Shown here: positions 28,510-53,931 of the stretch, in pieces
Layout: each line of letters starts with the position of its first letter
Position numbering within the stretch: the stretch's first letter is position 1
Assembly: GCA_944321965.1 (NCBI GenBank)
Contig: CALUNH010000011.1
Span: forward strand, 1 to 64,000
Direction of reading: 5' to 3'
DNA length: 64,000 nt
Origin: an uncultured Alistipes sp.
GTDB taxonomy: Bacteria > Bacteroidota > Bacteroidia > Bacteroidales > Rikenellaceae
Made by a program: the position numbers and the translations under genes
The notes under the pieces: model-generated
Told to the model about the DNA's origin: nothing
What the model saw: only the letters and a program-made list of their open reading frames with translations
The model's database searches: none

Positions 28510-28571
28510 AAAAAGAGAGAAAATACGCTGGGAAACGTATTGAACCGCATCTGGCGTATTTCCTCTCTTCT
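28510..28571 (-). terminator. Second terminator at the 3' end of the PUL operon
   Basis: AAGAGAG-A-AAATACGC (28513-28528) pairs with GCGTATTT-C-CTCTCTT (28554-28569), 15 pairs and one mismatch, around a 25-nt loop. On the minus strand the stem is followed by TTTTT. It lies 16 bp past the lyase stop, before the palindromic terminator. Confidence 0.7.
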
Positions 28572-28586
28572 TTGTATGTCAGTCTG

Positions 28587-30509
28587 TCAGAATTGATTTC
28601 CTGAAGGCGGAGTTTCTGTCAGTGTGACGTTGAATGTGACGTCGGTCCCGGCACTTACCGATACGTCAAATCCGACGATAATTGTTCCTGTATTGGGAGA
28701 ATCCCATTTATATAGCGGATCAGTCGACCACGTATTGAGCGTAACTTCCGGATTGGACTCGACGATCATATACATCGTTTTGCCATTTTGTTCCAGCTTG
28801 AAGCATGTGTCGCTGATTTTTGTCGGAACCGCAGGAGTCACCATAGCCCAGCGGAGACTCCCGTAGACGGCTGTGGTAACCTCGTCATGAATAACGAGGT
28901 CTTTGCTGTCGACTAACTTGATGGTCCTGGTGGCTGACTGCACATAATTATTTCCCAATGTACCCGACAGATCGACTTTTGCGCCCTGTTCTGTATCGGA
29001 ATTGTAAGTTTCCAGAATATTGCACATATTGTCCACCTGGAATGGGCTTAAATCCATGGTCAGCGTATTGTGATAGTCGCTTCGGATGCGGAGGACTTTC
29101 GTCCAACGTTCGGAGTTCTGTACCATGCTCCACAGGTTGACACCAGCTTCTTCGACCTGCGTATAGCTTTGGCTGCCCAGATCCATGGCCCAACGGCATC
29201 CCAAAGCATCATAGACAAACGAACCGGCATCCATATGCCCGTGCCCTGTCCGAGCTTTTCCGGCCTTGATTCCCAAAAAACGGTCCGTCTCTCCGAGCGT
29301 CCAATCCTTATGAATCAGCACGACAGGAGTTGCACCTTCTCCATGCCAGAATGTTCGTGTCGGTGCGGTAATTTTATCCGTATCTACGGTTGTCGCATAG
29401 GAAAGGAGCATCGGGAGAAACTTCTCAGTTACATATTTTCCGTTGTTTAGCATGCGAATTTCGTTGTAAAGAAGAGACGGATCGTTCATCTTGCGGGCAA
29501 ACCACCAGATCGGCAATAGCGGCTGCTCGTATTCTGAATTATCCGAGTAATTGAAAACCTTACCGTTAACTCCGACCATGTGCAGCATGTATTCGGCAGA
29601 TTCTTTAAATCCCTGGATGTCGGATAGTCCGTTGTCGGTACCGAAGGCTTTCTCCAAAGCCGCAATCAATGCAACCTGGAGGTTGTTGCCGTAACACCAG
29701 TAACCGTATCCTTCGGGATAGTTGCCGTCCGGTCCGTATTCTGCCAGGGCGAACCGATTTGCGGCGACTGATCGTTCAAGAATATTGATGCATTCTTGAT
29801 TCATGGATTCGTCATCACCATACAGGGCTATGGCTCCGAGTATTAATCCTCCGTTACAGATTGAGTTCCAGTTGTTCACCCGATCGATGAACTGATCGGT
29901 TTCGTCGTACGAGGTTTGGAATCCGAATTCCGTGATTGCCTTGCGTATCAAAATGCGCGTACTCTCCTGCAGGTCATTGTACAGCCAGTCGTATCCGAAC
30001 GAAGCCGAAAGGACCAGTTCTGCCACGTCGAGATAATGCGAAGGATTCCAACTTGGAAAACTGCAGATGGCGATCAGATCTTCTTCCGCTTTGTTCAGAT
30101 ACCGGCTGTCTCCCGTCATCCGATAGGCGTATGCGAGATTCATGATATGCTTCTGTGCCAATGATGTCGTCAGCCGTTTCCCTACCATTTGGTAGGGAAT
30201 AGCTTCCTCAGTCAGGTGCAGATCGCTTTGCGCGATAACATAGTCATGTATTTTTTTTAGGTCGGGCGAAATCTCTATCGTCTTTTTGAGCTCTTCGAAA
30301 TCCGATTCCGTCATTAGCAGACGGGGGTGGTCGGTTAATTTGGAATAATCGAAGGTCGGGGTGTAATTGTCCCCTGTCCCTGGATCCGGATCAGGTGTCC
30401 CCGGATCGCTATTTTCACTACCCGAACCACATCCGCAGAGAAGCATTCCCGCGCATGCAATACTTATAAAGGTTCGGTACAGGTTACTTGTTTTTTTGGG
30501 TTGAGCCAT
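28587..30509 (-). CDS. Heparinase II/III-family lyase lipoprotein, copy A
   Basis: A 640-residue predicted lipoprotein (LLCGC lipobox near residue 23) with a Gly/Pro/Asp linker. Residues about 50-360 form the alpha/alpha-toroid (DHPRLLMTESDFEEL, NNWNSICNGG, PEGYGYWCYG). Residues about 390-640 are the C-terminal beta-sheet domain. Active-site motifs are present: HGHMDAGSF (the HxH pair), WAMDLGSQSY (metal Asp) and DYHNTLTMD (metal His). The fold covers PL12, PL15, PL17, PL21 and PL33, which cut uronic-acid glycans by beta-elimination; I cannot assign the PL family. Last gene of the minus-strand PUL arm, 20 bp after copy B. Confidence 0.85.
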   Translation of the reverse strand: MAQPKKTSNLYRTFISIACAGMLLCGCGSGSENSDPGTPDPDPGTGDNYTPTFDYSKLTDHPRLLMTESDFEELKKTIEISPDLKKIHDYVIAQSDLHLTEEAIPYQMVGKRLTTSLAQKHIMNLAYAYRMTGDSRYLNKAEEDLIAICSFPSWNPSHYLDVAELVLSASFGYDWLYNDLQESTRILIRKAITEFGFQTSYDETDQFIDRVNNWNSICNGGLILGAIALYGDDESMNQECINILERSVAANRFALAEYGPDGNYPEGYGYWCYGNNLQVALIAALEKAFGTDNGLSDIQGFKESAEYMLHMVGVNGKVFNYSDNSEYEQPLLPIWWFARKMNDPSLLYNEIRMLNNGKYVTEKFLPMLLSYATTVDTDKITAPTRTFWHGEGATPVVLIHKDWTLGETDRFLGIKAGKARTGHGHMDAGSFVYDALGCRWAMDLGSQSYTQVEEAGVNLWSMVQNSERWTKVLRIRSDYHNTLTMDLSPFQVDNMCNILETYNSDTEQGAKVDLSGTLGNNYVQSATRTIKLVDSKDLVIHDEVTTAVYGSLRWAMVTPAVPTKISDTCFKLEQNGKTMYMIVESNPEVTLNTWSTDPLYKWDSPNTGTIIVGFDVSVSAGTDVTFNVTLTETPPSGNQF

Positions 30510-30529
30510 AGTATTTTAATGCTTTAATG

Positions 30530-32509
30530 TTATCGGGGATCCGTTTCTGATAAAGTAACTGTAACGATGTTATATGGCGTGCCACTTGTCCTTGAAAAGG
30601 TTGGGCGAAGTATGGTATACGCATATCCATCTTCCGATACCGTTATCGGATTTGTTGAATTATTGCCATAACTTCGGAAATTCTGGTTTGTTCCCGGACC
30701 GGTCGACGGGACCGCGGATTGCATACGGAGATAGAGTGTTTTCCCATCTTGATTCAATACCCATGTTGCATCATTGCCGGTAGCGCTGCCCGGACGAGTC
30801 ACTTCAGCCCCCGTCACGAACCCATAATTAATAGTTAAACTGCCACCGGTACTTCGCCTGTATACACTGTCGATAATTACAATATCCGTATTGTTTACTA
30901 ATTTGATCGTGCGCGTGATTTTGGCATTATTGTCCGATGCCGGGAAGTTGGTATCGTTGATGCACCGTGAAAGATCGAGCACAGCCCCTCGTTCTGTAGG
31001 CGTGTCGATTATCGACTTGAGTGTGCAGGTGGCGTCTGACGAGCATTTGTTGTTGTCGCTGTGTCTCCATGTACTGTGATATGTACGTGTCGTTTCTTCG
31101 AAATCCGTCCAACGCACGGCATTGGCCCCATTGGTCCAGTAATCGGGCGCCTCTTCTTCGACTGTGTCGAAATCGATATGGCAGGGGTCGATTGCCCAAC
31201 GGTTTTTGCCTATGTCGAAAACATATGATCCCGAGTCGTTATGGGCCATTTCCGTCGTGGGGGTACCTCCTTTGAAGGCCACGTAGCGATCGTTCTCATC
31301 ATCTTCCCAACCCGAACGAATCATGACGACAGGAGTGACTCCGTCTCCTACATACATTGTCTGGGTCGGAGCCGTAACCGATGCGGCGTTGAAGTTCGAA
31401 GTGAATGCCATTACCATGGGAAGGAGCCGGTATTCAGCTTTTTCGGCAGCATAGTCGCCGTTTCTCAGCCGTTTCATTTCATTCCATAACAACGACGGAT
31501 TATTTGTCTTTTCGGCGAAATACCACATGGGAATACGGATGGACGGTTCTTCATGGTTGTCGCCATAGTTATAGATTTTGTTGCCGGGGCCTTCCATATG
31601 CAGCATGTAGTCGGCCGTTTCGAGAAATCCGGGGGTGGCGGAGAGTCCGTTATCCGTTCCGAATGCTTTTTCCAGTGAAGCGAGAAGCAGTACCTCGTAG
31701 GTGGTCCCGTATCCCCACGCTCCATATCCTTCCGGATACGCTCCGTCGGGGCCGTATGCTTCTATGGCTTGTTTGTTGTTGTTCAAGGCATTTTCGAGCA
31801 CATCGTGGCACCGGGTCGGGTTGAACTCGAAAATGGCAATCGCTGCGAGGATGCGTGACGTATTGCAGACTGCATTCCAATAATTGCTTTTTTCCCGATA
31901 TTGATCTCCATACAATGCTGCCTGATAGAACGTGATATAGGAGATGCGTTGTTCAATGAGAGATCGTAACTCTTCGGAGAGACCTTCATAGAGCCAGTCG
32001 TAACCTAAAGCAATGGCGGTGGATAGCTCACTCAAGTCGAGCATACAGTCCGGATGCCAGTCATCGAGGGCGCAAACGGCCTCCAATTCTGCCGTGGCAC
32101 GTTCCAGATAGCGGGTATCCTCGGTCATTTGATATCCGTAGGCCAAATGGAATATACGGGCCAATGCCTGGCGTGCGGCATGAAGCAACCTGCCATAGCG
32201 GAGTTCATAGGATATGACTGGCTCCGAAAGGAACTTTTCGCATCGGGAGATGATGATTTCATGCAGCGCAGTCAATTCGCTGGATGTCGCCAACCGTTCC
32301 TTGAGGGCTGCGAAATCGTTTGCATTCATCAATAGCCGAGGATGTTCCGTCAGACGGGTATAGTCGAAAATGCCTGTAGGAATGGTTGCTGTGGGATGAT
32401 GGAATTCAGTAGGAGTCGGGCGCCTCCAGTCGGGTTCTTCATCGTTGCACGAAGAGAATCCGCAGATCAAAAGTGCGCTCATAGCGTACATTGTCAATAA
32501 TGATTTCAT
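30530..32509 (-). CDS. Heparinase II/III-family protein, divergent copy B
   Basis: A 659-residue predicted lipoprotein (GFSSC lipobox near residue 21). It keeps the family layout (HPRLLMNANDFAAL, PEGYGAWGYG, alpha-toroid then beta-sheets). Compared with copies A and C, the toroid motif is SNYWNAVCNTS instead of NWN-x2-CNGG, and the HxHMDAGS motif has become MAHNDSGS, losing the first His. The metal ligands AHND, WAIDP and TYHST seem kept. In P. heparinus HepII the lost position corresponds to catalytic His406 (by my alignment, not computed). It may have altered chemistry or be a binding protein. It lies between copies A and C with 13-20 bp gaps. Confidence 0.8.
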   Translation of the reverse strand: MKSLLTMYAMSALLICGFSSCNDEEPDWRRPTPTEFHHPTATIPTGIFDYTRLTEHPRLLMNANDFAALKERLATSSELTALHEIIISRCEKFLSEPVISYELRYGRLLHAARQALARIFHLAYGYQMTEDTRYLERATAELEAVCALDDWHPDCMLDLSELSTAIALGYDWLYEGLSEELRSLIEQRISYITFYQAALYGDQYREKSNYWNAVCNTSRILAAIAIFEFNPTRCHDVLENALNNNKQAIEAYGPDGAYPEGYGAWGYGTTYEVLLLASLEKAFGTDNGLSATPGFLETADYMLHMEGPGNKIYNYGDNHEEPSIRIPMWYFAEKTNNPSLLWNEMKRLRNGDYAAEKAEYRLLPMVMAFTSNFNAASVTAPTQTMYVGDGVTPVVMIRSGWEDDENDRYVAFKGGTPTTEMAHNDSGSYVFDIGKNRWAIDPCHIDFDTVEEEAPDYWTNGANAVRWTDFEETTRTYHSTWRHSDNNKCSSDATCTLKSIIDTPTERGAVLDLSRCINDTNFPASDNNAKITRTIKLVNNTDIVIIDSVYRRSTGGSLTINYGFVTGAEVTRPGSATGNDATWVLNQDGKTLYLRMQSAVPSTGPGTNQNFRSYGNNSTNPITVSEDGYAYTILRPTFSRTSGTPYNIVTVTLSETDPR

Positions 32510-32522
32510 CGTATTTGAAATA

Positions 32523-34376
32523 TTAATTGTTCGTTACCATACTCTGTTGCATCGTCTCGAATTTCCGATCTGTGAGCGGAAGTAGCCGTGCTGTCAATTC
32601 TGCATATTCACCGGGCTGCAAAGTCACTTCGAAACCTATACGGCATGTATTCGGATTGGGCATGTCGTAGGCATGTGGAGGCTCGTTGGACCAGATCTTT
32701 AGCGCGAAATCCTTGGCCCCGCAATCAACTGCCAACAGACGGTGCCTACCTTGGGACTCAAGCAGGATCTCTTTGTCATTCACAATTTTCGCACAAGCCG
32801 GAGTCGTGATAGACCATCGTACATGGGTTATCGAGTCGCCTGCTTCAAGTCGGTCTGTGACAATCAAATGCTTTTTTTTGTCTACGAATACTTTCCGTAC
32901 TGCCGAATCCAGGTCGGGATGCAATACCTGTGTCAAATCGACCTCGGCGCCTTTGCATGACCGCGTCCTGAATGTCTTCATGATGGGTGCAAAACCCTTG
33001 ACGAAATGCCGGTGCCCGTTGGCTGTAATCGTGTTGTGTGAGAAGGGCCCGATCCGGAAAACCTCCCAGCGTTCGCCCTCTTGTCCCGAGTTCCAAAGGT
33101 CGACCCCTTTGCTTTCAAGCGTATAATACTCCTGTACTCCAAGGTCCATGGCCCAACGGACGCCCTCGGCTTCGAAGATGAATGACCCGGCGTCCATGTG
33201 GGCGTGACTTGTGGCAGCCGATCCTCCCTTGATTCCCAGATAGGTGTCGTCGGGTGAACTCCAACCTTCGCGGTAGATGTAAACTGGTGTCTTCCCCTCG
33301 TTGTACCAAAAATGACGCGAAGGGGCAGGTAACTGGTCGAGGCGGTACTGTGCTCCGAAAATCAACAGACACGGCAACAGCCGGTCTTCAGCAAATGCCG
33401 CGCCGTTTCGCATCTTGCATATTTCCGGCCACAATACGGCTGTGTTGCCGGTTTTGCGGGCGAACCAGAAGAGCATCATGTGGCAATCGGCAATCGGCTC
33501 TGCATCTGAAAAATTGAAGCAGTTCCCGCTTGGAGCAGACATCATCTGCATAAATTCGGCTGATTCGAGAAATCCTGGAGCCGTTGATAGTCCTCCATCA
33601 TGTCCGAACGCACTTTCCAACGCAGCAAGAAGCATCACCTGAAAACTGGTTCCATAGCCCCAGTAACCGTATCCTTCGGGATAGCCTCCCTGGGGGGCAT
33701 AACTCGCCAGGGCGATAGGATTGGTCTTCATACAACGTTCAATGATGGATTGGGCTGTCTCGGGACAATCCTCGTAAATAGCCAGGGCCCCGTAGACCAG
33801 CCCTCCGTTGCATACCTGATTCCAATTGGTTGCAGAAGAATAAAACCAGGCCTGTCGGGAATTCGATGTCGGGGCAAATCCCTTGTCGATAATGGCTTGC
33901 CGGACAGTCTCACGCGTGGCAGGTGAGAGCTGATCATACAACCAGTCGTATCCGATAGCCAAAGCCATGGTCATTTCTCCCACATCTAAAAAATGGGAGG
34001 GGTTCCAGTCTATGAATTGGCTTGCAGCAAGCATCTCCTGCTCGGCTCGCTGGGCGTACCGTCTGTCTCCAACCATGCGATAGGCATAAGAGAGATAGAA
34101 GATACGCTTCAAGGCAGTCCGGGAAACCGCGAGTAGCCGTTTCCCCTCCTTGATCCGTTGGACGGGCGGCTCCAGAAGGAATGTGGAGCAGTCGGCAAGA
34201 ATTCGCTCGTGAACCTTCTGCATGTCCGGATTTCCCCGAAGGTGCTTTTGCAGGGTTTGTTCTTCACCTTCGCGCAAAAGCAATCGAGGGTGCGGTGTAA
34301 TCGAAGAATAGTCAAACGTCGCACACCAGGCCGAAGCCGTGCAGCATAGAGAGAATATAAGAATTAAGATTTTCAT
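32523..34376 (-). CDS. Heparinase II/III-family lyase, copy C
   Basis: A 617-residue secreted protein with a plain signal peptide (FSLCCTASAWCA), so periplasmic rather than lipid-anchored. It has all core motifs: HPRLLLREGEEQTL, NWNQVCNGGL, PEGYGYWGYGTSF, SHAHMDAGSF (HxH), WAMDLGVQEYY and FSHNTITANG. It resembles copy A more than copy B. The lack of a lipobox suggests it works in the periplasm on oligosaccharides imported by SusCD, while copies A and B sit at a membrane surface. First of the three lyase genes, 12 bp after the surface glycan-binding gene. Confidence 0.85.
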   Translation of the reverse strand: MKILILIFSLCCTASAWCATFDYSSITPHPRLLLREGEEQTLQKHLRGNPDMQKVHERILADCSTFLLEPPVQRIKEGKRLLAVSRTALKRIFYLSYAYRMVGDRRYAQRAEQEMLAASQFIDWNPSHFLDVGEMTMALAIGYDWLYDQLSPATRETVRQAIIDKGFAPTSNSRQAWFYSSATNWNQVCNGGLVYGALAIYEDCPETAQSIIERCMKTNPIALASYAPQGGYPEGYGYWGYGTSFQVMLLAALESAFGHDGGLSTAPGFLESAEFMQMMSAPSGNCFNFSDAEPIADCHMMLFWFARKTGNTAVLWPEICKMRNGAAFAEDRLLPCLLIFGAQYRLDQLPAPSRHFWYNEGKTPVYIYREGWSSPDDTYLGIKGGSAATSHAHMDAGSFIFEAEGVRWAMDLGVQEYYTLESKGVDLWNSGQEGERWEVFRIGPFSHNTITANGHRHFVKGFAPIMKTFRTRSCKGAEVDLTQVLHPDLDSAVRKVFVDKKKHLIVTDRLEAGDSITHVRWSITTPACAKIVNDKEILLESQGRHRLLAVDCGAKDFALKIWSNEPPHAYDMPNPNTCRIGFEVTLQPGEYAELTARLLPLTDRKFETMQQSMVTNN

Positions 34377-34388
34377 GATTCCCTTTCG

Positions 34389-35465
34389 CTAATTGTAATG
34401 GTCCGGATTTTCGTCCTGCCATTCGTTCACTCCATCGCGTATTCTGTTCCGGAACGTCAGCGTATCCTGTACATAGGTTGATGTTCCATCCTTGTTGTCG
34501 TACTTGTAGTTGAGGAAGATTTTGCGATCTTGCAGCAACCGGGCCTGGTTGAAATGGCTGCCTTTGTCGAAAGGTTCGATTGTGAGACTTCCGTCCGCAG
34601 ACGAGACTTCTATTTCGCCGTGTTCGTGCTGTACGAGGCGCAGTGATCCGCTTCCGTTGCCCAGCCGATTGGTTGTCAGCGCTAATGGAGCATCGGTTGT
34701 CAATGTATAGATGGCGTTTTCGTCTTGAGGAATCGTCGTGGGATAAACATCCGTGGAAATCACTTCATTTGTGGTATTGTCCCGGATGGTGGTGACACCT
34801 CCATGATAGTAGTTGCCGAAGAGCATGTTTTCGTATTTCACAGCGATGACTGCGAAACTTTTGGACAATAGCACGGTGTCTGCGTCAGCGTGTTCGATGC
34901 GGAATCCGAATGCGTAGTAAGGAGTTTTTGTTACGGGGTCGGAGAGAAAGGCAACTGAATCGGCTTTTACTGTTACAGTTCCCGTATGCCAACCCTTGGG
35001 AATGGTCATTCGTTCCGTATTGCTCAAGAGGTAGTAGTCTGTAGGCATCACAGCGATTTCGCTGAGATTCAAGCTGCTGAACAGATTGGTCACATATGCC
35101 GCACTGAGATCTCCGGCCGGCGCATTCCCATACATGCCGTCTATTGCCGTAAATGAGGTGCCTTCTACGTTGATACCTTCCTCTTCATCAAAGGTATCGC
35201 TGAATTCAATCAGATCTCCGTTGACCAGATTGTCATCTATCCGGAAATAGACCTCCCGATCCTGCGTGTTGTCGATTACACCTGCCAATACGGCTCCGAT
35301 CTGAAAACTCATCCCTTCTCCCACGATAAAACTTCGCACATCATATTGATAGGCGATATATATGCCGGAAGAATGCCCGGAGGCATTTTTGTAATCTTGG
35401 ACATAGTCATCGTAACATCCCGAAGACAATATCGATAGAGAAAGAATCATTAGTAATTTTTTCAT
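34389..35465 (-). CDS. DUF1735/DUF4361-type surface glycan-binding lipoprotein
   Basis: A 358-residue predicted lipoprotein (LSSGC lipobox near residue 17). The N-terminal part resembles DUF1735 (SGIYIAYQYDVRSF, REVYFRIDDNLVN, FRIEHADADTVLLSKS); the C-terminal part, starting near residue 220, resembles DUF4361 (LFGNYYHGGVTTIRD, TTNRLGNGSGSLRL). Such proteins follow SusD in many Bacteroidetes PULs and are thought to bind glycan. The ATG at 35465 is chosen because an in-frame ATG at 35510 overlaps the SusD gene and adds a tail with no signal peptide. It lies 26 bp after SusD1. Confidence 0.72.
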   Translation of the reverse strand: MKKLLMILSLSILSSGCYDDYVQDYKNASGHSSGIYIAYQYDVRSFIVGEGMSFQIGAVLAGVIDNTQDREVYFRIDDNLVNGDLIEFSDTFDEEEGINVEGTSFTAIDGMYGNAPAGDLSAAYVTNLFSSLNLSEIAVMPTDYYLLSNTERMTIPKGWHTGTVTVKADSVAFLSDPVTKTPYYAFGFRIEHADADTVLLSKSFAVIAVKYENMLFGNYYHGGVTTIRDNTTNEVISTDVYPTTIPQDENAIYTLTTDAPLALTTNRLGNGSGSLRLVQHEHGEIEVSSADGSLTIEPFDKGSHFNQARLLQDRKIFLNYKYDNKDGTSTYVQDTLTFRNRIRDGVNEWQDENPDHYN

Positions 35466-35491
35466 CGGTATACTTTTTTGAGGGTTATCAT

Positions 35492-37345: not shown

Positions 37346-37357
37346 GGTATTAGGCTT

Positions 37358-40216: not shown

Positions 40217-40239
40217 AAATATCGGGCTGAATTGCGATA

Positions 40240-42096: not shown

Positions 42097-42108
42097 AATC
42101 TTTGTCGT

Positions 42109-45100: not shown

Positions 45101-45543
45101 GCCCCGAGCATCGGGTTTCCCTCATCATCGAGAACGATACCTGACACAGGTATGTCGGTTTCGGTGTTTTTTGGGTCGTGGGGATTTCCTGTATTTTTCG
45201 ATAAAGTAATACGTAGGTTGCGCTCGGTGGAAATCCGGATTTCTTGTGATGTATATCCAGATGCGGAAATTAAAATAGTGGTTCCAGGTGCTGCGGATAG
45301 TTCAAAACTCCCTTCAGCACTGGTTGTTACGGTTTGGGAAAATTCCCCCTCCCTTGCGGAAACCGAAGCCCCTTGAATGGGCTTGCCTTCTTCGTCAAGT
45401 ACGATTCCGGTAACTATGGACGAATTTTGGGCAAATGCAGATGGGGAGCCAAACACCAAGCCGCATAATAATATTGACATAAGAACAACGATACCTTTTG
45501 GGAGTACTTGCCGCTCTTCCGTCAAAGTGTTGGTATTTTTCAT
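42109..45543 (-). CDS. SusC/RagA-family TonB-dependent transporter 2 with two regulatory domains
   Basis: A 1144-residue transporter, longer than SusC1. After the signal peptide (ILLCGLVFGSPSAFAQ) come two carboxypeptidase-D-like beta-sandwiches (VTGIVLDEEGKPIQGASV and VSGIVLDDEGNPMLGATI), roughly residues 45-120 and 130-205. The plug follows (DVVVVGYGVQRKESVVGAI, EPLILVDGMERSF, ATAVFGAKGANGVIIVTT) and then the barrel, ending TLKLGIKIGF. The ATG at 45543 is chosen because the in-frame upstream part (45726) has no signal-peptide-like sequence. First gene of the minus-strand PUL arm. Confidence 0.94.
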   Translation of the reverse strand: MKNTNTLTEERQVLPKGIVVLMSILLCGLVFGSPSAFAQNSSIVTGIVLDEEGKPIQGASVSAREGEFSQTVTTSAEGSFELSAAPGTTILISASGYTSQEIRISTERNLRITLSKNTGNPHDPKNTETDIPVSGIVLDDEGNPMLGATITVKDRNDLGGVMADQNGRFNFSVPRGSILLVQFIGYQNREYKITKETQLQVTLYEEATDIEDVVVVGYGVQRKESVVGAISQVHTEELVNSGTVNITNAIAGKLPGVLTYQTSGQPGNNDATIYIRGLSSWNGSEPLILVDGMERSFSELDPNEVRTISVLKDASATAVFGAKGANGVIIVTTRTGSIGRPKMNLSVNYGMDIPTNVPDHISSYQTALMANVAYKNVGMFSSLFSEKELAEYRNPSSRVNSLRYPDNDWFDLLVKKISPTVNANFNISGGNDWVKYFMNFSYAHEGSIAKRFSDWGNSTFRYDKINYRTNLDFTVTKSTSLSLKVGGTLGIRQQPDGVSVSTLFNSIYTASPMSFNAYYPAWALEEIPDTDYPDANEPRLAANRGSYYRNPYTYLNDASFEQTTTNTLYTDLILDQKLDFITEGLSINAKASLSTYYGRISQQANQSYSVFYIDWDRYDNQDGNPWVRNTTTSSVYEEEPYAVTQGGMSGTYYTIFYWEASLNYARTFGQDHHVTGLALFQQRERNTNSNFPYRTQGLVGRVTYAYKNKYLFEANVGYTGSEQFSPSNRYGVFPSAAVGYVISQEGFWKHSMPWWNLMKIRYSDGIVGSDSADERWLYYSSYTSRGGLLYEDDAANSNARWETARKRDLGIEMGWFDNMITLTVDLFDERRKDMLIAPQVTMLVGTDYKNVNRGEMKKHGIDIELGFSRKTRSGLRYDFGAMIGLNENRIVNYEDALYAPDYQKYAGTSYRGARLGTNLVDSGYYTSVDDIHNYPSYTSNWSHIFPGTYKYLDYKFDGKLDSDDLHYIEGCQWPPVVYSFHAGLSYKGFEFNVLFYGNKGKYVEYNRNFEMEFNHNDLVVNKSQLDYWRPDNPNASHNNLFFGDPNALYEWGGGSSANGYDVQIPDRTWRKADYLTLKEIYASYTFNREKLKKALGINSLSIYMTANNVYTFTNLIEHDPQRTSIASGYYPMMTTLKLGIKIGF

Positions 45544-45879
45544 AGGTATAGTTTTAAGGTTGTTAGGTTCAAGAGCGATTGGGATCACGAAGAATCCGAT
45601 GGAAGTATGACAATCTCGACAAGAGTTGGCAACTCTGCCGCACCCCGAATGGAATATATACAGGAAAAAAGACAATACTCCGCCACGATCGGTTTGAACC
45701 GTGGCCCGGCATCTTTGCTCTCGCACAAGTTGGACAATAACTCTTCGATGCTCGGTTTTCGGGAAGAGTAGATTTTGCTGGGTTAGGCTTAAGGCGTGTG
45801 AATTAATTTTAGGTCATAAGCTTGTTTGTTAGTGAGGTTATATGCTATAATCGATTGTGTTAGGTGTGTTTCTTGTCTT
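45544..45879. other. 336-bp gap between LacI gene and SusC2
   Basis: A/T-rich leader and promoter region of the SusCD-lyase arm. It holds the LacI-type operator-like sequence at 45849-45861. No full TAnnTTTG box was found on the minus strand between the operator and the SusC2 start, so the start site is not placed. Nothing else coding was seen. Confidence 0.6.
45849..45861. promoter_or_regulatory. LacI operator-like site, SusC2 side
   Basis: AATCGATTGTGTT is identical to 46995-47007 on the other side of the LacI gene. The core AATCGATT is palindromic, as LacI/PurR-type operators are. It is 19 bp past the LacI stop and about 306 bp before SusC2. Confidence 0.6.
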
Positions 45880-46899
45880 TTATTTTTCTGACGATTTCCT
45901 TATAATAAGCTGGGGTTTTAATACGATATCCTTTACCTTACGGTCTGCAATCGGCAGATTCATTTGCTCCAATAGCATTTTTGCCACTTCGATACCCATT
46001 TCTACATTTCGTTGATCTACAGATGAAAGCATCGGATCAACGAATTCGTCGAATAGTTCGTTGCCGAATCCAACAACTGCAATGTCCTCCGGTATTTTTA
46101 TGTTGTTGTTTTTTAGTGATTTGAATAGCCCCATGGCAGAATTGTCACTTGATGAAAATACGGCGTCGGGACGTTCGTCGAGAGGTAGCGATAAAATCTG
46201 CTCTGCCGCTTTTGTCCCGGCTTCTAACGTGATACCGCATTGATAAACCAACTGTTCGCTTATGGGGATTCCTGCTTCTTTGAGGGCTTGTACATATCCC
46301 ATCTGGCGTTGTTGATAAACACTGATGCCTTGAGGCCCGGCCAAATGTGCTATACGTTTACAACCTCTGTCTATCATGTGTTTCACAGCATCATAGGCGC
46401 CGGCATAGTCGTCAATTCGTACACTATTGACATGACGGAACAAAGGAATGCGATCGAAAAAAACGATAGGCATACCTTTTTCTATGGCCTGGTCAAAATG
46501 CTGATAGTCGATTGTATCGGCAGCAAGTGAAATGGCAAGCCCGTCGACTTTTTGCATCATTGCCTGCAGAACCTGTTTCTCCTTCTCCCATAATTCGTGT
46601 GATTGCGCAACCAGTACACTGTAGCCGGCTTCATTAACTACATTTTCGATACTTTCAATCAGAAGGGAAAAGAATGAACGGCCTATGCGGGGCACGATGA
46701 CTCCAATTACCCGGCCTTTTCCTGTTCGGAGTTGACTGGCTGCCAAATTCGGCTGGAATCCACGCTCTTTGGCCAATGACCACACCTTTTCCTTCATTTT
46801 CCGGCTGATCCGCGGATGATCCTGGAATGCTCTGGAAACTGTTGATGCCGTGGTGCTCAACTCCTTTGCAAGGTCGTATATTGTGATGTTGTTATTCAT
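45880..46899 (-). CDS. LacI-family transcriptional regulator
   Basis: A 339-residue regulator. Residues 4-25 are the helix-turn-helix (ITIYDLAKELSTTASTVSRA); the hinge helix is NLAASQLRTGKG. The periplasmic-binding-like effector domain follows (VIGVIVPRIGRSFFSLLIES, RIAHLAGP, VFSSSDNSAMGLFK, AVVGFGNELFDE). It likely binds a PUL-derived sugar. Its gene is flanked by matching operator-like sequences upstream of SusC2 and of the GH105 gene, and its own -7 box overlaps the second region, so it probably represses both arms and itself. Most PULs use HTCS, SusR or ECF sigma factors instead. Confidence 0.93.
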   Translation of the reverse strand: MNNNITIYDLAKELSTTASTVSRAFQDHPRISRKMKEKVWSLAKERGFQPNLAASQLRTGKGRVIGVIVPRIGRSFFSLLIESIENVVNEAGYSVLVAQSHELWEKEKQVLQAMMQKVDGLAISLAADTIDYQHFDQAIEKGMPIVFFDRIPLFRHVNSVRIDDYAGAYDAVKHMIDRGCKRIAHLAGPQGISVYQQRQMGYVQALKEAGIPISEQLVYQCGITLEAGTKAAEQILSLPLDERPDAVFSSSDNSAMGLFKSLKNNNIKIPEDIAVVGFGNELFDEFVDPMLSSVDQRNVEMGIEVAKMLLEQMNLPIADRKVKDIVLKPQLIIRKSSEK

Positions 46900-46958
46900 T
46901 GAATCTGGTGATAAATATTGTGAAAAAGCAGGTGTGTCGGAAAAGTTTTTTGTTCGCT

Positions 46959-46991
46959 TTTGACAAATATATATATTTTTTTTTATATTTG
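46959..46991 (+). promoter_or_regulatory. Promoter of GH105-BNR-GH99 arm
   Basis: TTTG at 46959-46962 (-33) and TATATTTG at 46984-46991 (-7) with a 21-bp spacer, the best promoter match in the window. The start is expected near 46997, inside the operator, giving a 58-nt leader before the GH105 ATG. Confidence 0.75.
46963..46970 (-). promoter_or_regulatory. Promoter -7 box for LacI gene
   Basis: On the minus strand this reads TATATTTG (46970-46963), a full match, 64 bp before the LacI start codon. It lies between the -33 and -7 boxes of the opposing GH105 promoter, so the two divergent promoters overlap. Its -33 region covers the operator. Confidence 0.55.
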
Positions 46992-46993
46992 TG

Positions 46994-47007
46994 CAATCGA
47001 TTGTGTT
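46994..47007. promoter_or_regulatory. LacI operator-like site, GH105 side
   Basis: CAATCGATTG at 46994-47003 is a perfect palindrome, and AATCGATTGTGTT (46995-47007) matches the SusC2-side site exactly. It covers the predicted start of the GH105 promoter, so bound repressor should block it. Confidence 0.65.
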
Positions 47008-47054
47008 TTTTGGTGCTAATTTTTTTCAAGTATTTAAATCTAAAAGCAGAAATC

Positions 47055-48164
47055 ATGGAGCGAATTATAATTTTAGCTTATTTTTTATTAGCACCTTCTC
47101 TGATGTTGAAGGCCGCACAACCCTTCTCTGGCGAAATGAATCCCGATGCTGTCCGCACGGTTTGCAATGCTGTCGCAACATGGCAAATGGATAATTTCGA
47201 AAAGGTCAAACGGAATAATCTCAGTTGGGTCAACGGTGCGCTTTATCGGGGAATGATCGAATGGGCCAATTTGGAGAATAATCAGGAAATATTCGATTTT
47301 CTCATGAATATCGGAAAGAAAAATCGGTGGGCTATGCCTTCCCGAGTCTATCACGCCGATGATATCTGCGTCGGGCAGGCTTTCATTGAGATGTATCGTA
47401 AATATAAGGACCGGAGGATGCTCCAGCCTGTTATGGAGCGTGCTTTTTATGTGGCTTCTCATCCGTCGTCCGCTCCGATGTCGAAAGCGGATGAGAAAGG
47501 GAAGGATGAACGCTGGTCGTGGAGCGATGCTTTGTTTATGGCTGCCCCGGTCTATGCCGCTTTATATGCTATTACGGGGGAACAAATCTATTTTGATTAC
47601 ATGGACAGTGAATTCCGCATCAGTACGGATTCGCTTTATGATAAGAAAGAGCATTTGTATTATAGGGACTGTATGCGCATTCCATTGCGCGAGCCGAATG
47701 GAGCCAAACAGTTCTGGGGTCGTGGTAATGGCTGGGTATTTGCCGCTATCCCGCTTATTTTGGAAAATTTGCCCGCTGACCACCCCTCACGCGGTTACTA
47801 TATTGAGATCTTTTGCCAAATGGCTGAAAGAGTGGTTGACACACAGGATCGTTCCGGCTCGTGGCATGCAAGTTTGCTTGATCCTGCCACGTATCCCGAC
47901 CCTGAAAACAGCGTTTCCGCTTTCTTTTGTTACGGATTGGGCTGGGGACTCCGAACCGGGATCCTTTCCGGAAAGAAATACGAACGTGCTCTTGAGCGCG
48001 GATGGGAATCGCTTATCAGTTATGTTCATGCAGACGGCAAGTTGGGGTATGTTCAGCCCATTGGCAATGCACCTCGGAAAGCAGGAGCCGATTCGACTGA
48101 GGCTTATGGCGTCGGCGGACTGTTGCTGGCCGGAAGTGAAATCATACGTTTGAAGCAGGAATAG
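47055..48164 (+). CDS. GH105/GH88-family unsaturated uronyl hydrolase
   Basis: A 369-residue secreted enzyme with a short signal peptide (FLLAPSLMLKAAQ). It has an (alpha/alpha)6 barrel with AMPSRVYHADDICVGQAF, ERWSWSDALFMAAPVYA, FWGRGNGWVFAAI and DPENSVSAFFCYGLGWGL, signature segments of GH105 (YteR-like). Such enzymes remove the 4,5-unsaturated uronic acid that lyases leave at the non-reducing end, which fits the three lyases across the locus. The ATG at 47055 is chosen; a longer in-frame start at 46899 would run through the promoter and operator. Confidence 0.88.
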   Translation: MERIIILAYFLLAPSLMLKAAQPFSGEMNPDAVRTVCNAVATWQMDNFEKVKRNNLSWVNGALYRGMIEWANLENNQEIFDFLMNIGKKNRWAMPSRVYHADDICVGQAFIEMYRKYKDRRMLQPVMERAFYVASHPSSAPMSKADEKGKDERWSWSDALFMAAPVYAALYAITGEQIYFDYMDSEFRISTDSLYDKKEHLYYRDCMRIPLREPNGAKQFWGRGNGWVFAAIPLILENLPADHPSRGYYIEIFCQMAERVVDTQDRSGSWHASLLDPATYPDPENSVSAFFCYGLGWGLRTGILSGKKYERALERGWESLISYVHADGKLGYVQPIGNAPRKAGADSTEAYGVGGLLLAGSEIIRLKQE

Positions 48165-48206
48165 GGATGGGTGCGTAAATGCGTAAAATCGATAATTGAA
48201 TTTGAT

Positions 48207-49616
48207 ATGAAAAAGATAAAAGTTCTTTTTTTGCTTGGGGCGCTGTTTTGTGGAATATCACTTGTTGCGCAACCGTTAAACAATAAAAAAATCAATGGAT
48301 ATCGAGGGATTTGGTTTACATTGGGCCAGGAAAGCGAGTATGGATACAAGTATTCTGGCGGATTGGGAACCTATACGGTCAAGCATAATCCATTGGCTGT
48401 TTACGCTCCGGAAGTAGACCGTACTTTTTTCGTATATGGAGGGACGACGGAAGCCAAGGAACGTCATTTGCTCTGTATGATAGGTTGCTATGATCATAAA
48501 ACCGGGATGGTTCAAAAACCCGTTGTGGTGTTCGACAAGGAGCAGGTAAAAGACCCGCATGACAATCCGGCGCTCCAAATTGATGAGGATGGATATTTGT
48601 GGGTATTTGTAAGCGGTCGAGGAGCAAAACGCCCGGGGCATATTTATCGAAGCGAAAATCCGTATGATATTTCTAAATTCCATGCGGTGAAAACATGGAT
48701 GATGACCTATCCTCAACCGATGTATGTACCGGGAGAAGGTTTCTTTCTTTGCTTTACTCAATATACAGGGGTCCGCAAACTCTATTTTTCGGTCAGCCGG
48801 GATGGTCAATCCTGGAGTACACCGGAATTATTGGCGGATATTAAGGAGCCGGGTGATAAATATAGTGGGCAATATCAAGTATCTGCATCTTTCGGGAACA
48901 AAATTGTTACTTGTTTTAACCGGCATAAGAACGGGGTTGTAGATACTCGGACAAATATGTATTACCTCCAGACAACGGATATGGGTAAAACTTGGACTAC
49001 GGCCGATGGCATCAGGGTCGAAACTCCTGTGACGGATTTGCACAGCCCTTGTTTGGTTGTTGATGCTCAGTCTCAAAAGAAGAATTTGTATATTAAAGAT
49101 GTAAATTTCGATGAAGAAGGCAATCCGGTCGTGCTTTACCTCACCAGTGGGGGACACAAACCGGGTCCGGGCAACAATCCGAGACAATGGTATGTCGGTT
49201 ATTGGAACGGATCGGAATGGAATCATTATCCGGTAACGACATCGACCCATAACTATGATTCGGGCAGTATTTGGACCGGCCATGACTGTTGGACGGTTAT
49301 CGCTCCAACTGATGCGGGCCCCCAAAAATGGGGTACGGGCGGTGAAATCGTTATGTGGCAAAGTAAAAATAAAGGCAAGACGTGGAAACGAGTGAAAACT
49401 TTGACCTCCAACAGCCCATATAATCATGGATATGTACGGCGACCGCTCAATGCGACAGATCCTTTCTATGGCTTTTGGGCGGATGGAAATCCCGAACGAC
49501 TTACAAAGTCAATACTTTATTTTACCGATTCAAAAGGGAATGTCTATTCATTGCCTTATGATATGAAGGAGGAGTGGGCTGCACCCAAGGCTCTCCCCGA
49601 TATCGGTAAGCGATAG
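48207..49616 (+). CDS. BNR_4-type beta-propeller enzyme, GH145/PL24/PL25-like
   Basis: A 469-residue secreted protein (LFLLGALFCGISLVAQ). It opens NGYRGIWFTLGQESEYGYKYSGGLGT... (abridged: YRGIWFTLGQ, GGLGTYTVKHNPLAVYAPE), then BNR/Asp-box propeller strands (SVSRDGQSWSTPE, TTDMGKTWTTADG, QSKNKGKTWKRVK) and SGGHKPGPGNNPRQW. This pattern fits the BNR_4 family, which includes rhamnogalacturonan rhamnosidases (GH145) and ulvan lyases (PL24, PL25). Either would suit a uronate-rhamnose glycan. Which activity applies cannot be told here. The ATG at 48207 is chosen over 48171 because it starts the signal peptide. Confidence 0.7.
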   Translation: MKKIKVLFLLGALFCGISLVAQPLNNKKINGYRGIWFTLGQESEYGYKYSGGLGTYTVKHNPLAVYAPEVDRTFFVYGGTTEAKERHLLCMIGCYDHKTGMVQKPVVVFDKEQVKDPHDNPALQIDEDGYLWVFVSGRGAKRPGHIYRSENPYDISKFHAVKTWMMTYPQPMYVPGEGFFLCFTQYTGVRKLYFSVSRDGQSWSTPELLADIKEPGDKYSGQYQVSASFGNKIVTCFNRHKNGVVDTRTNMYYLQTTDMGKTWTTADGIRVETPVTDLHSPCLVVDAQSQKKNLYIKDVNFDEEGNPVVLYLTSGGHKPGPGNNPRQWYVGYWNGSEWNHYPVTTSTHNYDSGSIWTGHDCWTVIAPTDAGPQKWGTGGEIVMWQSKNKGKTWKRVKTLTSNSPYNHGYVRRPLNATDPFYGFWADGNPERLTKSILYFTDSKGNVYSLPYDMKEEWAAPKALPDIGKR

Positions 49617-49623
49617 CATTTTA

Positions 49624-49653
49624 AGGATGCCGGTTCCATAGAATCGGCATCCT
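49624..49653 (+). terminator. Hairpin between BNR_4 and GH99-like genes
   Basis: AGGATGCCGGTTC pairs with GAATCGGCATCCT (13 pairs, one G-U) around a 4-nt loop. No T-run follows, so it is more likely an mRNA-stability or partial-terminator hairpin. Confidence 0.45.
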
Positions 49654-49697
49654 GTTGTGCCTATCCTGGATTTGTTAAACCTAAAATTCTTTCTTAA

Positions 49698-51557
49698 ATG
49701 AACGCATTCAAACCTCTTGTTTGGGGATTGCTCGTCTTTATATTTATGGGATGTACCAAGGAAAACGGAAATAATTCGCACGGAGAACCTTCTGGTACGA
49801 CCGATCCTGCTGTTCAGGCCTATGGAGCTGCTTCTTGGACAGCACAATATGCTTCTGGGGACCGGATCTCGTTCGGAGACGATTATCCCGAACGGCGTGA
49901 AGGGAAATCAGTCGGTATCTTTTATTTTATATGGCTTGGACATCATGGTTATGATGAATCGAGTAATGACCATACGTCTGAAGTCATCACGCCGTCGGCT
50001 TCCGATACAAGAAGCCCGTATGATATTACGGAATTACTTAAGGCAAATCCCACTGATCCGGCTTATGGGCCCGATCAGGCTTTCCATCATTGGGGCAAGC
50101 CTTATTTTGATTATTATGTTTCCAATGATACATGGGTATTGCGCAGGCATGCACAGATGCTCAGTGATGCAGGTATAGATGTTATTTTCCTCGACGTGAC
50201 CAACAGTTTTATTTATGAATCGACTGTGCGCACGATCTGTAATCTCTACCTGACCATGCGCAATGAAGGGAATCCTACTCCGCAGATATCCTTTCTTGCC
50301 AACAGCTCCTCCAATGCAACGGTTCAGGCACTTTATGATCAGTTTTATTCCAATAGCCGTTATGAGTCGCTTTGGTTCCAATGGGACGGGAAGCCTTTAA
50401 TCTTATGCGATACGGATGAGGGTTTCGATGCGGAGGTTGCTGCTTATTTTACTATGCGGAAAGCCTGGTTCGATTCGGGGCAATCATGGTTCGGCGATGG
50501 CGAAGGCCGTTGGACCTGGGGCGATTATTATCCCCAGAGGCCCGGACTCAAAAACGGTGCTGTCGAGCAAATTTCAGTCATGCCGGCCACCCACCCGTCA
50601 CTCCGTTGCATCGGACGAAGCCATACGGGTACTGAACAGCCTGCGACGACGACTGAGGAGATGTCGGGAGCTGGTACGTATTTCAAACTTCAGTGTGCCA
50701 GGGCGTTGGAAATCGATCCCGATTTTGTCCTTATTACGGGTTGGAATGAATGGGTTGCGCAGCGGCAGATTAGCGGGGAGATACCTTCTACGGAATATTT
50801 TATTGGGAAACCGGTCTCGGAAGGTGACACCTATTTCGTTGATCAGTACAACCATGAGTATAGCCGGGATATTGAACCTGTAGCCGATGGCTTCCGTGAT
50901 AATTATTATTACTATATGGTAGATTTTATCCGGAAGTTTAAGGGCGTAACTCCTCCTCCTGTTATCCGAGAAACCCGCTCGATATCTGTTGACGGATTGA
51001 TGGACGATTGGACTGATGTTGCAGTCTGCTACTCTGATGACAGGGGAGATATTGCAGAGCGGAATCATTTCGGATGGGGTCGGGTTGGACAATTGATCGA
51101 TTATTCGGGCCGTAATGATATTATAGTTACAAAAGTCACGGCTGATGATAATAATCTTTATTTTTATGTAAAAACGGGCTATACAATGACTCCGTATTCG
51201 GATGACGATTGGATGCGATTGTTTATCTCTGTGGATGGGGATACCGGAAATAACTGGGAAGGATTCGGTTATGTTGTGAACAATAGCGTGTTGAGCGGAA
51301 CCACGACTACTCTTCAGCGAGCCCAGGGCGGATGGAGTTGGGGGGATGACCGTGAGATCAGTTATGCGGTTCGTGATAATCAGATGGAGATTGCGATTCC
51401 GCTGGAGGCCCTGCATATCTCGAATAAGGATAATTTTACGGTCGATTTTAAATGGATTGACAACAGTGTGAGCGATGGAGATATATGTGAATGCATGAAA
51501 TACGGGGATTCTGCTCCCAATGGCCGCTTCCGCTATCGATTCTCTGTTAATCGTTGA
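49698..51557 (+). CDS. GH99-like glycoside hydrolase lipoprotein with CBM9/DOMON-like domain
   Basis: A 619-residue predicted lipoprotein (IFMGC near residue 19). Residues about 70-420 resemble GH71/GH99-like TIM barrels: SVGIFYFIWLGHHG, MLSDAGIDVIFLDVTNS, LWFQWDGKPLILCDTDEG and VLITGWNEWVAQRQ (a likely catalytic Asn-Glu). Residues about 430-619 form a beta-sandwich like DOMON/CBM9 (ISVDGLMDDWTDVAV, FYVKTGYTMTPYSDDDW). GH99 proteins are endo-mannosidases, but GH99-like proteins also occur in other glycan loci. Last gene of the plus-strand arm, 81 bp after BNR_4. Confidence 0.65.
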   Translation: MNAFKPLVWGLLVFIFMGCTKENGNNSHGEPSGTTDPAVQAYGAASWTAQYASGDRISFGDDYPERREGKSVGIFYFIWLGHHGYDESSNDHTSEVITPSASDTRSPYDITELLKANPTDPAYGPDQAFHHWGKPYFDYYVSNDTWVLRRHAQMLSDAGIDVIFLDVTNSFIYESTVRTICNLYLTMRNEGNPTPQISFLANSSSNATVQALYDQFYSNSRYESLWFQWDGKPLILCDTDEGFDAEVAAYFTMRKAWFDSGQSWFGDGEGRWTWGDYYPQRPGLKNGAVEQISVMPATHPSLRCIGRSHTGTEQPATTTEEMSGAGTYFKLQCARALEIDPDFVLITGWNEWVAQRQISGEIPSTEYFIGKPVSEGDTYFVDQYNHEYSRDIEPVADGFRDNYYYYMVDFIRKFKGVTPPPVIRETRSISVDGLMDDWTDVAVCYSDDRGDIAERNHFGWGRVGQLIDYSGRNDIIVTKVTADDNNLYFYVKTGYTMTPYSDDDWMRLFISVDGDTGNNWEGFGYVVNNSVLSGTTTTLQRAQGGWSWGDDREISYAVRDNQMEIAIPLEALHISNKDNFTVDFKWIDNSVSDGDICECMKYGDSAPNGRFRYRFSVNR

Positions 51558-51711
51558 GAGTTGTTTGTATGCAAAGACTCCCCGAAACGGGGATGGTCCG
51601 CATAAATTGTGGAACCCCGAAGGATTGCAGATGTACCTTTAAGATGTCAGATTATTTTATGCCAGATCTGTAATCTTTTTTGCATCGGAATTCACGATGT
51701 TATGATAAACA

Positions 51712-51742
51712 ACATGTCCCAGGCAAAATGCCTGGGACATGT
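51712..51742. terminator. Hairpin between convergent GH99-like and mutB genes
   Basis: ACATGTCCCAGGC pairs perfectly with GCCTGGGACATGT (13 bp) around a 5-nt loop. T-runs are weak (TTGTTTAT on the minus strand). It probably separates the PUL from mutB; the rest of the 235-bp gap has only a C8 tract at 51772. Confidence 0.5.
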
Positions 51743-51792
51743 CCTGTTGATGGGAGAGTGCGTTTTGGGCACCCCCCCCTCCCTTGGGTGTG

Positions 51793-53931
<2,139 letters not shown>

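Follow-up and report, generated by a model that had tools for sequence, protein, structure and literature searches.

The 64,000-nucleotide stretch of uncultured Alistipes DNA analysed in this work (the window; bases 1-64000 of the 74284-base contig C11) carries a polysaccharide utilization locus (PUL) that combines three consecutive heparinase II/III-fold genes and two SusC/SusD pairs with a LacI-family regulator and a divergent arm containing a GH105-type unsaturated uronyl hydrolase and a BNR_4 propeller. Judged by their sequences, all three heparinase-fold genes belong to polysaccharide lyase family PL35, and the middle one, PL35_2, has lost the complete catalytic triad that its two neighbours retain. 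Because all three residues are gone, PL35_2 is most likely catalytically inactive, and the simplest reading is that of a pseudolyase that binds glycan at the cell surface alongside an active surface lyase, PL35_1. For the locus as a whole we consider it rather probable that it is a LacI-controlled PUL for a glucuronate glycan with little or no sulfation. The genome of origin (G000) comprises 2.6 Mb in 82 contigs and is 85% complete. In the comparison genome G409, a complete single contig of 3.38 Mb that belongs to this genus too, the entire locus is found in syntenic arrangement, with 97.8% identity over 34.7 kb.

Three PL35-fold genes, one of them without a catalytic triad

An earlier note, made from the sequence of the window alone, had described three heparinase-fold lyases in a row. 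The three genes do match PF07940 (PL35_2 at the borderline, with 23.1 bits in one scan and 25.5 in another at a cut-off of 24), and their best match among solved structures is in each case the PL35 enzyme GAGase II (8KHV). An assignment to PL15, PL21 or PL33 was rejected because PL35 structures score far higher than those of the other solved families. The number of predicted lyases has to be lowered to two:

28587-30509, minus strand: PL35_1, predicted PL35-family lyase with triad N213/Y270/H423, by eye a likely lipoprotein (8KHV, 454 bits)
30530-32509, minus strand: PL35_2, PL35-fold protein without the triad (Y210/A264/M421), probable surface glycan-binding pseudolyase (8KHV, 337 bits)
32523-34376, minus strand: PL35_3, predicted PL35-family lyase with triad N184/Y238/H391, by eye probably periplasmic (8KHV, 573 bits)

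Twenty-three functional positions given in the available part of the GAGase study (PMC12088678) were mapped onto GAGase II numbering, the offset of 22 being fixed via the HxHxD motif. PL35_1 and PL35_3 retain Asn192, Tyr246 and His401 as well as the Mn residues His403, Asp405, Asp421 and His457. In PL35_2 the triad is replaced throughout (N192Y, Y246A and H401M, corresponding to Tyr210, Ala264 and Met421 of the protein) and further changes are H136C, Y427F and, at a Mn ligand, H457Y; three of the four Mn-site residues and several residues of the cleft are kept. The asparagine, the tyrosine and the histidine are each retained in 55 of 57 PL35 rows, the exceptions being PL35_2 and its G409 ortholog; these rows, which comprise 8KHV, the window genes, their G409 orthologs, fetched loci and stretches and some partial sequences, are not independent of each other. 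According to the available part of the GAGase work, alanine mutants at the triad positions lost all activity on chondroitin sulfate C (CS-C) (Wei et al., PMC12088678).

The possibility that PL35_2 is a decaying pseudogene was rejected in view of its intact reading frame of 659 amino acids, the 98% identity of its ortholog in G409 and the imprint of purifying selection. The two orthologs differ by 21 synonymous and 11 nonsynonymous codons, equivalent to a ratio of nonsynonymous to synonymous rates (dN/dS) of 0.19, with P values of 1.5e-6 if, as a rough estimate, 75% of the changes are taken to be nonsynonymous under neutrality and 3.4e-5 if 70% are. The corresponding ratios are 0.23 for PL35_1, for which only nine codons differ (P 0.05 and 0.10), and 0.08 for PL35_3. 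Intact and under purifying selection, PL35_2 is therefore probably a binding protein. Enzyme-derived binding proteins occur in PULs. The PL35_2 N-terminus, a signal-like stretch ending in a cysteine that is followed by NDEEPD, looks by eye like that of an exported surface lipoprotein. A lipobox-like cysteine is also seen in PL35_1; PL35_3, the GH105 protein and the BNR_4 protein seem to be devoid of one. A structural model of PL35_2 built from a nine-row alignment is closest to 8KHV (TM 0.77/0.87), consistent with a PL35 fold.

In a tree of 54 PL35 rows (the three of the 57 that have 480 residues or fewer were omitted) PL35_1 and PL35_2 fall into one clade together with the PL35 of a sister locus from the same genome, and PL35_3 falls into another. 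A single recent tandem triplication was rejected on the basis of this split. The stem branch of PL35_2 is long (1.52 versus 0.74 for PL35_1). PL35 is widespread: matches to PL35_2 were obtained in 58 of 180 genomes of the genus at 1e-60 and in 17 of 247 genomes of the order at 1e-30. Neither a triad-less PL35 nor its pairing with a BNR_4 module was found by title or abstract in the open-licence literature (preprints lay outside the scope), and as far as these searches go both are new within the literature covered.

A BNR_4 propeller related to PL25

The BNR_4 protein of the divergent arm matches its Pfam family with 82 bits. With a seven-row profile the PL25 structure 5UAM was retrieved (E 1.5e-13) ahead of GH145-type propellers (3e-11 and weaker) and PL42 (2e-4). 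When the AlphaFold model, predicted with high confidence (pLDDT 93), was submitted to Foldseek, 5UAM again came first (E 4.6e-21, TM 0.68/0.74), followed by GH145 and PL42 structures and Uly1, with sialidases and lectins far behind. A scan of species-representative genomes yielded 408 related stretches, from which 80 loci were kept; 59 rows from these loci and the window protein constitute an alignment of 60 rows. His130 and Tyr180, conserved in 59 rows each, occupy the columns of the catalytic PL25 residues His123 and Tyr188. The column of the PL25 neutralizer Arg204 is occupied by threonine in 60 of 60 rows (Thr196 in the window protein) and that of His143 by arginine in 58 (Arg150); Arg202 and Arg260 are present in all 60. 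Direct membership in PL25 or GH145 was rejected, as single-sequence phmmer returned zero matches in the PDB, identity is only about 17% and Arg204 is absent. The protein stands outside PL25 as defined by its residues and is plausibly a beta-eliminating enzyme with another neutralizer.

Going by record titles, relatives occur in Bacteroidales, other Bacteroidota, a planctomycete and Opitutae, with matches in 8 of 247 genomes of the order at 1e-20 and in 4 of 101 genomes of the genus at 1e-30, and many of them are uncharacterised. Particularly long BNR_4 proteins of about 650-670 amino acids are encoded at L142:9332-11326, L134:13058-15052, L159:4052-6040, L117:14405-16420 and L171:9380-11329. 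All of these loci except L171 hold a second, shorter BNR_4 gene, all five contain a GH43 cluster member and four (not L159) a member of a metallophosphoesterase cluster. Near another BNR_4 module, a single gene (L084:10068-11603) fuses a NapC/NirT cytochrome region with an FGE-sulfatase domain.

Operon, divergent arm and accessory genes

The PL35 genes belong to an eight-gene minus-strand operon with the order SusC1-SusD1-SusC2-SusD2-SGBP (candidate surface glycan-binding lipoprotein) followed by the three heparinase-fold genes, in which intergenic gaps range from -19 to 20 bases. The lacI-type gene and the divergent plus-strand arm of three genes (GH105, BNR_4, GH99-like) adjoin this operon, and the locus is flanked in the window by genes for an iron alcohol dehydrogenase on one side and a methylmalonyl-CoA mutase on the other. 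Two adjacent susC/susD pairs together with enzymes and a regulator identify it as a SusCD-type PUL. The remaining features are:

34389-35510, minus strand: BT_3044-like candidate SGBP (PF14274, 16.6 bits, E 0.0098, below cut-off)
35492-37345, minus strand: SusD2 (PF07980, 147 bits)
37358-40246, minus strand: SusC2 (TIGR04056, 502.7 bits)
40240-42096, minus strand: SusD1 (PF07980, 163 bits)
42109-45726, minus strand: SusC1, TonB-dependent transporter (Plug domain, 60 bits; 59% identity to SusC1 of the sister locus)
45849-45861, plus strand: candidate LacI operator AATCGATTGTGTT, upstream of the SusC1 operon
45880-46899, minus strand: LacI-family regulator (PF00356, PF13377)
46995-47007, plus strand: candidate LacI operator AATCGATTGTGTT, upstream of the GH105 arm
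47055-48164, plus strand: GH88/GH105-family unsaturated uronyl hydrolase (PF07470, 286 bits; best solved relative 4CE7, 212 bits)
48171-49616, plus strand: BNR_4 propeller, PL25-like candidate lyase, start likely at 48207
49698-51557, plus strand: GH99-like protein, by eye a likely lipoprotein (PF16317, 17 bits; profile to 4ACY, E 1.4e-5)

The earlier note had listed the main genes correctly, including both SusC/SusD pairs and the divergent arm. It did not mention the candidate SGBP, which directly follows SusD2 here and in some related loci, and the start of the GH105 gene is now placed at the ATG at 47055 instead of the TTG at 46899. SusC2 had zero Pfam matches at 0.001, yet it exceeds the cut-off of the SusC/RagA model TIGR04056 (368) by a wide margin. 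The GH105 protein matches the GH88/GH105 family profile well and is predicted to belong there; its closest solved relative, 4CE7, is a 3S-rhamnoglycuronyl hydrolase from what we take to be an ulvan degrader. A weak NCBIfam match of the same protein is named beta-galactosidase BglB (75 bits, cut-off 420). The GH99-like protein stays below the PF16317 cut-off of 33, and the NEWHEG motif of 4ACY, whose two glutamates presumably form the GH99 catalytic pair, reads NEWVAQ, such that one glutamate is retained and the second is absent. A true GH99 was rejected since the profile matches to PF16317 and 4ACY are too weak. The GH99-like family is expanded in other genomes of the order (10 matches in G058 and 5 in G050, some in pieces), several of the matches lying on one contig (G058:C52, G050, G042:C59).

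A shared candidate operator and the absence of sulfatases

The two spacers beside the lacI-type gene share the 13-base sequence AATCGATTGTGTT, the AATCGATT half of which is a palindrome with a central CG. LacI-type operators often are palindromes with a central CG. Exact AATCGATTGTGTT occurs twice in the whole of G000 and twice in the complete G409, in all cases at this locus and in the same two places. With one mismatch allowed, three more sites were found in G409, compared to one for the backwards control, and the exact 13-mer was never seen in shuffled windows. As the motif was picked after it had been seen, genome-wide uniqueness is the better argument. Lying upstream of both arms, unique in the genome and beside LacI, it argues that the arms probably form one LacI regulon without a sulfatase. 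The proposal that the parts fit one pathway thus stands, with GH105 beside the lyases and both arms sharing this motif.

The lack of a sulfatase in the window had likewise been noted before, and zero PF00884 matches were found on the whole of contig C11 (74 kb); 13 matches lie on other contigs of the 85% complete G000. A sulfatase outside the window under the same LacI, which the earlier note had named as a finding that would speak against its proposal, was sought and rejected: PF00884 matches are absent from the rest of contig C11, the closest one in G409 is about 58 kb away from the locus, no further exact AATCGATTGTGTT exists in either genome, and the three one-mismatch sites in G409 are separated from every PF00884 match there by at least 97 kb. 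A sulfatase within the locus, as in classical PULs for sulfated glycosaminoglycans (GAGs) or ulvan, is therefore not present. The same genome contains, on contig C12 (about 35000-57500; L001-L003, L006, L096), four more heparinase-fold genes and two sulfatase genes (49164-50111 and 50819-52015) in a region that looks like a conventional sulfated-GAG locus.

Related loci

A paralogous sister locus on contig C26 of G000 (L077/L078) comprises PL35, BNR_4, GH105, two SusC, SGBP, a hybrid two-component system (HTCS), BACON, PL8 and GH43 genes. It resembles the window locus in BNR_4 (54% identity), GH105 (50%), SusC1 (59%), SusC2 (40%) and SGBP (55%) and differs from it by its HTCS regulator, BACON protein, PL8 and GH43, by a single PL35 with retained triad and by zero GH99-like matches. 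The DNA of the C26 locus is 89-91% identical to records labelled "uncultured Alistipes", and L136 and L140 are near-copies of it. Like the sister locus, L132 carries PL8 together with PL35. A locus in genome G148 has the order SusC1-D1-C2-D2-SGBP-BNR_4, with PL35 absent from the 34 kb retrieved, the PL35 of this genome residing on another contig; PL35 is therefore a frequent but not a constant partner of the module.

The module was surveyed by similarity clustering of the gene context in 87 sequence sets (the 80 loci with up to 10-kb flanks, fetched stretches and the window). BNR_4 is present in all of them, which is uninformative because the loci were picked by it, and the counts are too low for loci that are truncated at contig ends or were retrieved piecewise, as in G148. 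Two or more SusC genes occur in 16 sets, among them the window and the C26 sister, and these 16 include BACON in 11 cases, HTCS in 7, GH105 in 6, GH88-like genes in 2, PL35 in 5, SGBP in 4 and PL8 in 2. A sulfatase cluster is represented in none of the 16 as compared to 20 of the 71 other sets (Fisher P 0.018, the sets not being independent); this count covers one cluster, so that sulfatases of other clusters, or ones located outside the flanks, could escape it.

Proposed function and alternatives

In the reading that we favour, SusD1, SusD2, the SGBP and the triad-less PL35_2 would capture the glycan at the cell surface, where the likely lipoprotein PL35_1 would cut it by beta-elimination. 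The two SusC pores may import products of two sizes or types, which PL35_3 and the BNR_4 propeller would cut further in the periplasm, and GH105 would remove the unsaturated uronate left by both kinds of cuts. An oligosaccharide or uronate signal would release LacI from the operators in both arms. The target is likely an unsulfated or little-sulfated glucuronate glycan. In the available parts of the literature, GAGases of PL35 act on non-, 6-O- or N-sulfated glucuronic acid domains, and the Bacteroides caccae enzyme BcPL35 cuts hyaluronan and unsulfated but not sulfated chondroitin (PMC12269599). The earlier suggestion of an unsulfated uronate-rhamnose polysaccharide holds in its first part: a little-sulfated target is probable. 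The presence of rhamnose is a fair guess that draws plausibility from the PL25 and PL42 rhamnose-glucuronate lyases to which BNR_4 is closest; homologues of RhaA and KduI are present in both G000 and G409.

Several observations weigh against this reading. PL35_1, taken as active, differs from GAGase II at the binding positions Arg94 (Ser116) and Arg342 (Lys363), confidence in the model of PL35_2 is moderate (pLDDT 70.9) and poor near the metal loop, and the lipoprotein assignments were made by eye. In B. caccae PL35 a mutant of the catalytic histidine was below detection and a tyrosine mutant was about threefold down, according to the available part of the report (PMC12269599); as about one third of the activity was left, loss of the tyrosine alone is not decisive. 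PL35 by itself is no proof of an unsulfated target either, since RiPL35 acts on hyaluronan and also on CS-A and CS-C (PMC13027841, as far as available). The chemistry of BNR_4 may differ from that of PL25 because Arg204 is threonine in every row, and the GH99-like protein is without a clear role in a uronate pathway. Finally, AATCGATTGTGTT was singled out after the sequence had been inspected, and 6 of 100 shuffled windows contained its 12-base form at least twice when up to one mismatch was allowed.

The rival explanations concern the substrate on the one hand and single proteins on the other. We give some credence, well short of a preference, to a GAG locus for chondroitin, hyaluronan or heparosan with little or no sulfation, in which PL35 cuts, GH105 clears the uronate and BNR_4 is accessory. 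The characterised PL35 enzymes considered act, in the literature available in part, on hyaluronan, chondroitin sulfate or heparan sulfate and one also on alginate, the B. caccae PL35 locus is described without a chondroitin sulfatase, and PL8 and PL35 occur together in the C26 sister, in L132 and in a Roseihalotalea locus found by GAG proteomics. A GAG is disfavoured by the rhamnose-glucuronate specificity of the closest solved relatives of BNR_4, by the similarity of GH105 to a 3S-rhamnoglycuronyl hydrolase, by the absence of a hexosaminidase among the Pfam matches of the locus and by G148, which keeps the transport genes and BNR_4 apart from its PL35. Those same relatives of BNR_4 and GH105, the retained His/Tyr pair and the GH43 genes in some related loci would suit ulvan or an arabinogalactan of the gum arabic type, with BNR_4 as exo- or endo-acting rhamnose-glucuronate lyase. 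We regard this as quite improbable, considering that contig C11 is free of sulfatase matches, that no galactanase domain is among the domain matches of both arms (the BglB-named match being weak), that both Arg204 and His143 of PL25 are replaced and that activity of PL35 on such substrates is not reported in the available parts of the PL35 literature considered.

That PL35_2 is still a lyase or another enzyme with rewired residues, instead of a binding pseudoenzyme, would agree with its intact frame under purifying selection and with the remaining Mn-site and cleft residues. The combination of tyrosine, alanine and methionine at the triad positions in no other of the 57 rows except its ortholog and the lack of an obvious substitute acid or base leave little probability to it. 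A hydrolase similar to GH145 or a propeller without catalytic function is another conceivable identity of the BNR_4 protein, given that GH145 members, sialidases and lectins are also among the fold-search matches, that the PL25 neutralizer is lost and that the BT3686 rhamnosidase model is weakly matched (23 bits, cut-off 700). The near-invariant histidine and tyrosine at the catalytic PL25 columns and the three conserved arginines make this unlikely. A bolder version of the favoured reading, in which PL35_2 is a lyase turned surface receptor for the polymer cut by PL35_1 and the locus brings two unrelated lyase folds to bear on a single unsulfated rhamnose-glucuronate glycan, the BNR_4 subfamily being a new lyase family, is offered as a tentative idea only.

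Comparison with known systems

In the available parts of the literature considered, PL35 has so far been described only as active lyases of GAGs and in one case also of alginate. A conserved PL35 that lacks the triad and sits between two competent sisters would provide an example of how PULs take dead enzymes into service as receptors. It is also a warning for annotation, as counting heparinase-fold genes overcounts lyases. Recurring next to double SusCD pairs, the BNR_4 subfamily can be tested as a possible new family of uronate lyases among Bacteroidota of the gut, the rumen and the sea. The statement that the gene set of the window is undescribed has held, with no PUL of the same set turning up in the literature searched.

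As far as their descriptions are available, GAGase II and GAGase VII (8KHV/8KHW, PMC12088678) share fold, Mn site and triad with PL35_1 and PL35_3, whereas PL35_2 differs from them by the absence of Asn, Tyr and His. The propeller fold of BNR_4 is common to the PL25 enzyme PLSV_3936 (5UAM) and the PL42 enzyme FoRham1 (7ESK), as described in part in PMC8377490 and PMC13193363. BNR_4 keeps the His123/Tyr188 pair of PLSV_3936 and deviates from 5UAM by an overall identity of 17% and by the replacements of Arg204 by Thr196 and of His143 by Arg150.

On the level of whole loci, PUL25 of B. caccae and the GAG-PUL of Roseihalotalea indica are the closest described systems found. The former, in its partly available description (PMC12269599), is a chondroitin locus with PL35, GH88, GH109 and GH154 that resembles the window in combining PL35 with an unsaturated uronyl hydrolase and in having no chondroitin sulfatase in the locus. 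It differs by a single PL35, by GH88 in place of GH105, by GH109 and a uronate dehydratase, and BNR_4, a GH99-like protein or a pseudolyase do not appear in that description. The latter was identified by proteomics on GAG (PMC13027841) and, in the available part of that source, is listed with PL8, PL35, PL38 and CE19 only. Several lyases, SusCD and a list of carbohydrate-active enzymes without sulfatase are shared with the window and the pairing of PL8 with PL35 with the C26 sister locus; in contrast to the window there is one SusCD pair, BNR_4 and GH105 are not listed and all three lyases are active. The lack of a sulfatase, presented in the earlier note as unlike usual loci, is hence no surprise, because a chondroitin sulfatase is equally missing from the PL35 locus of B. 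caccae, and in the light of both systems a PL35 locus without a sulfatase of its own looks ordinary.

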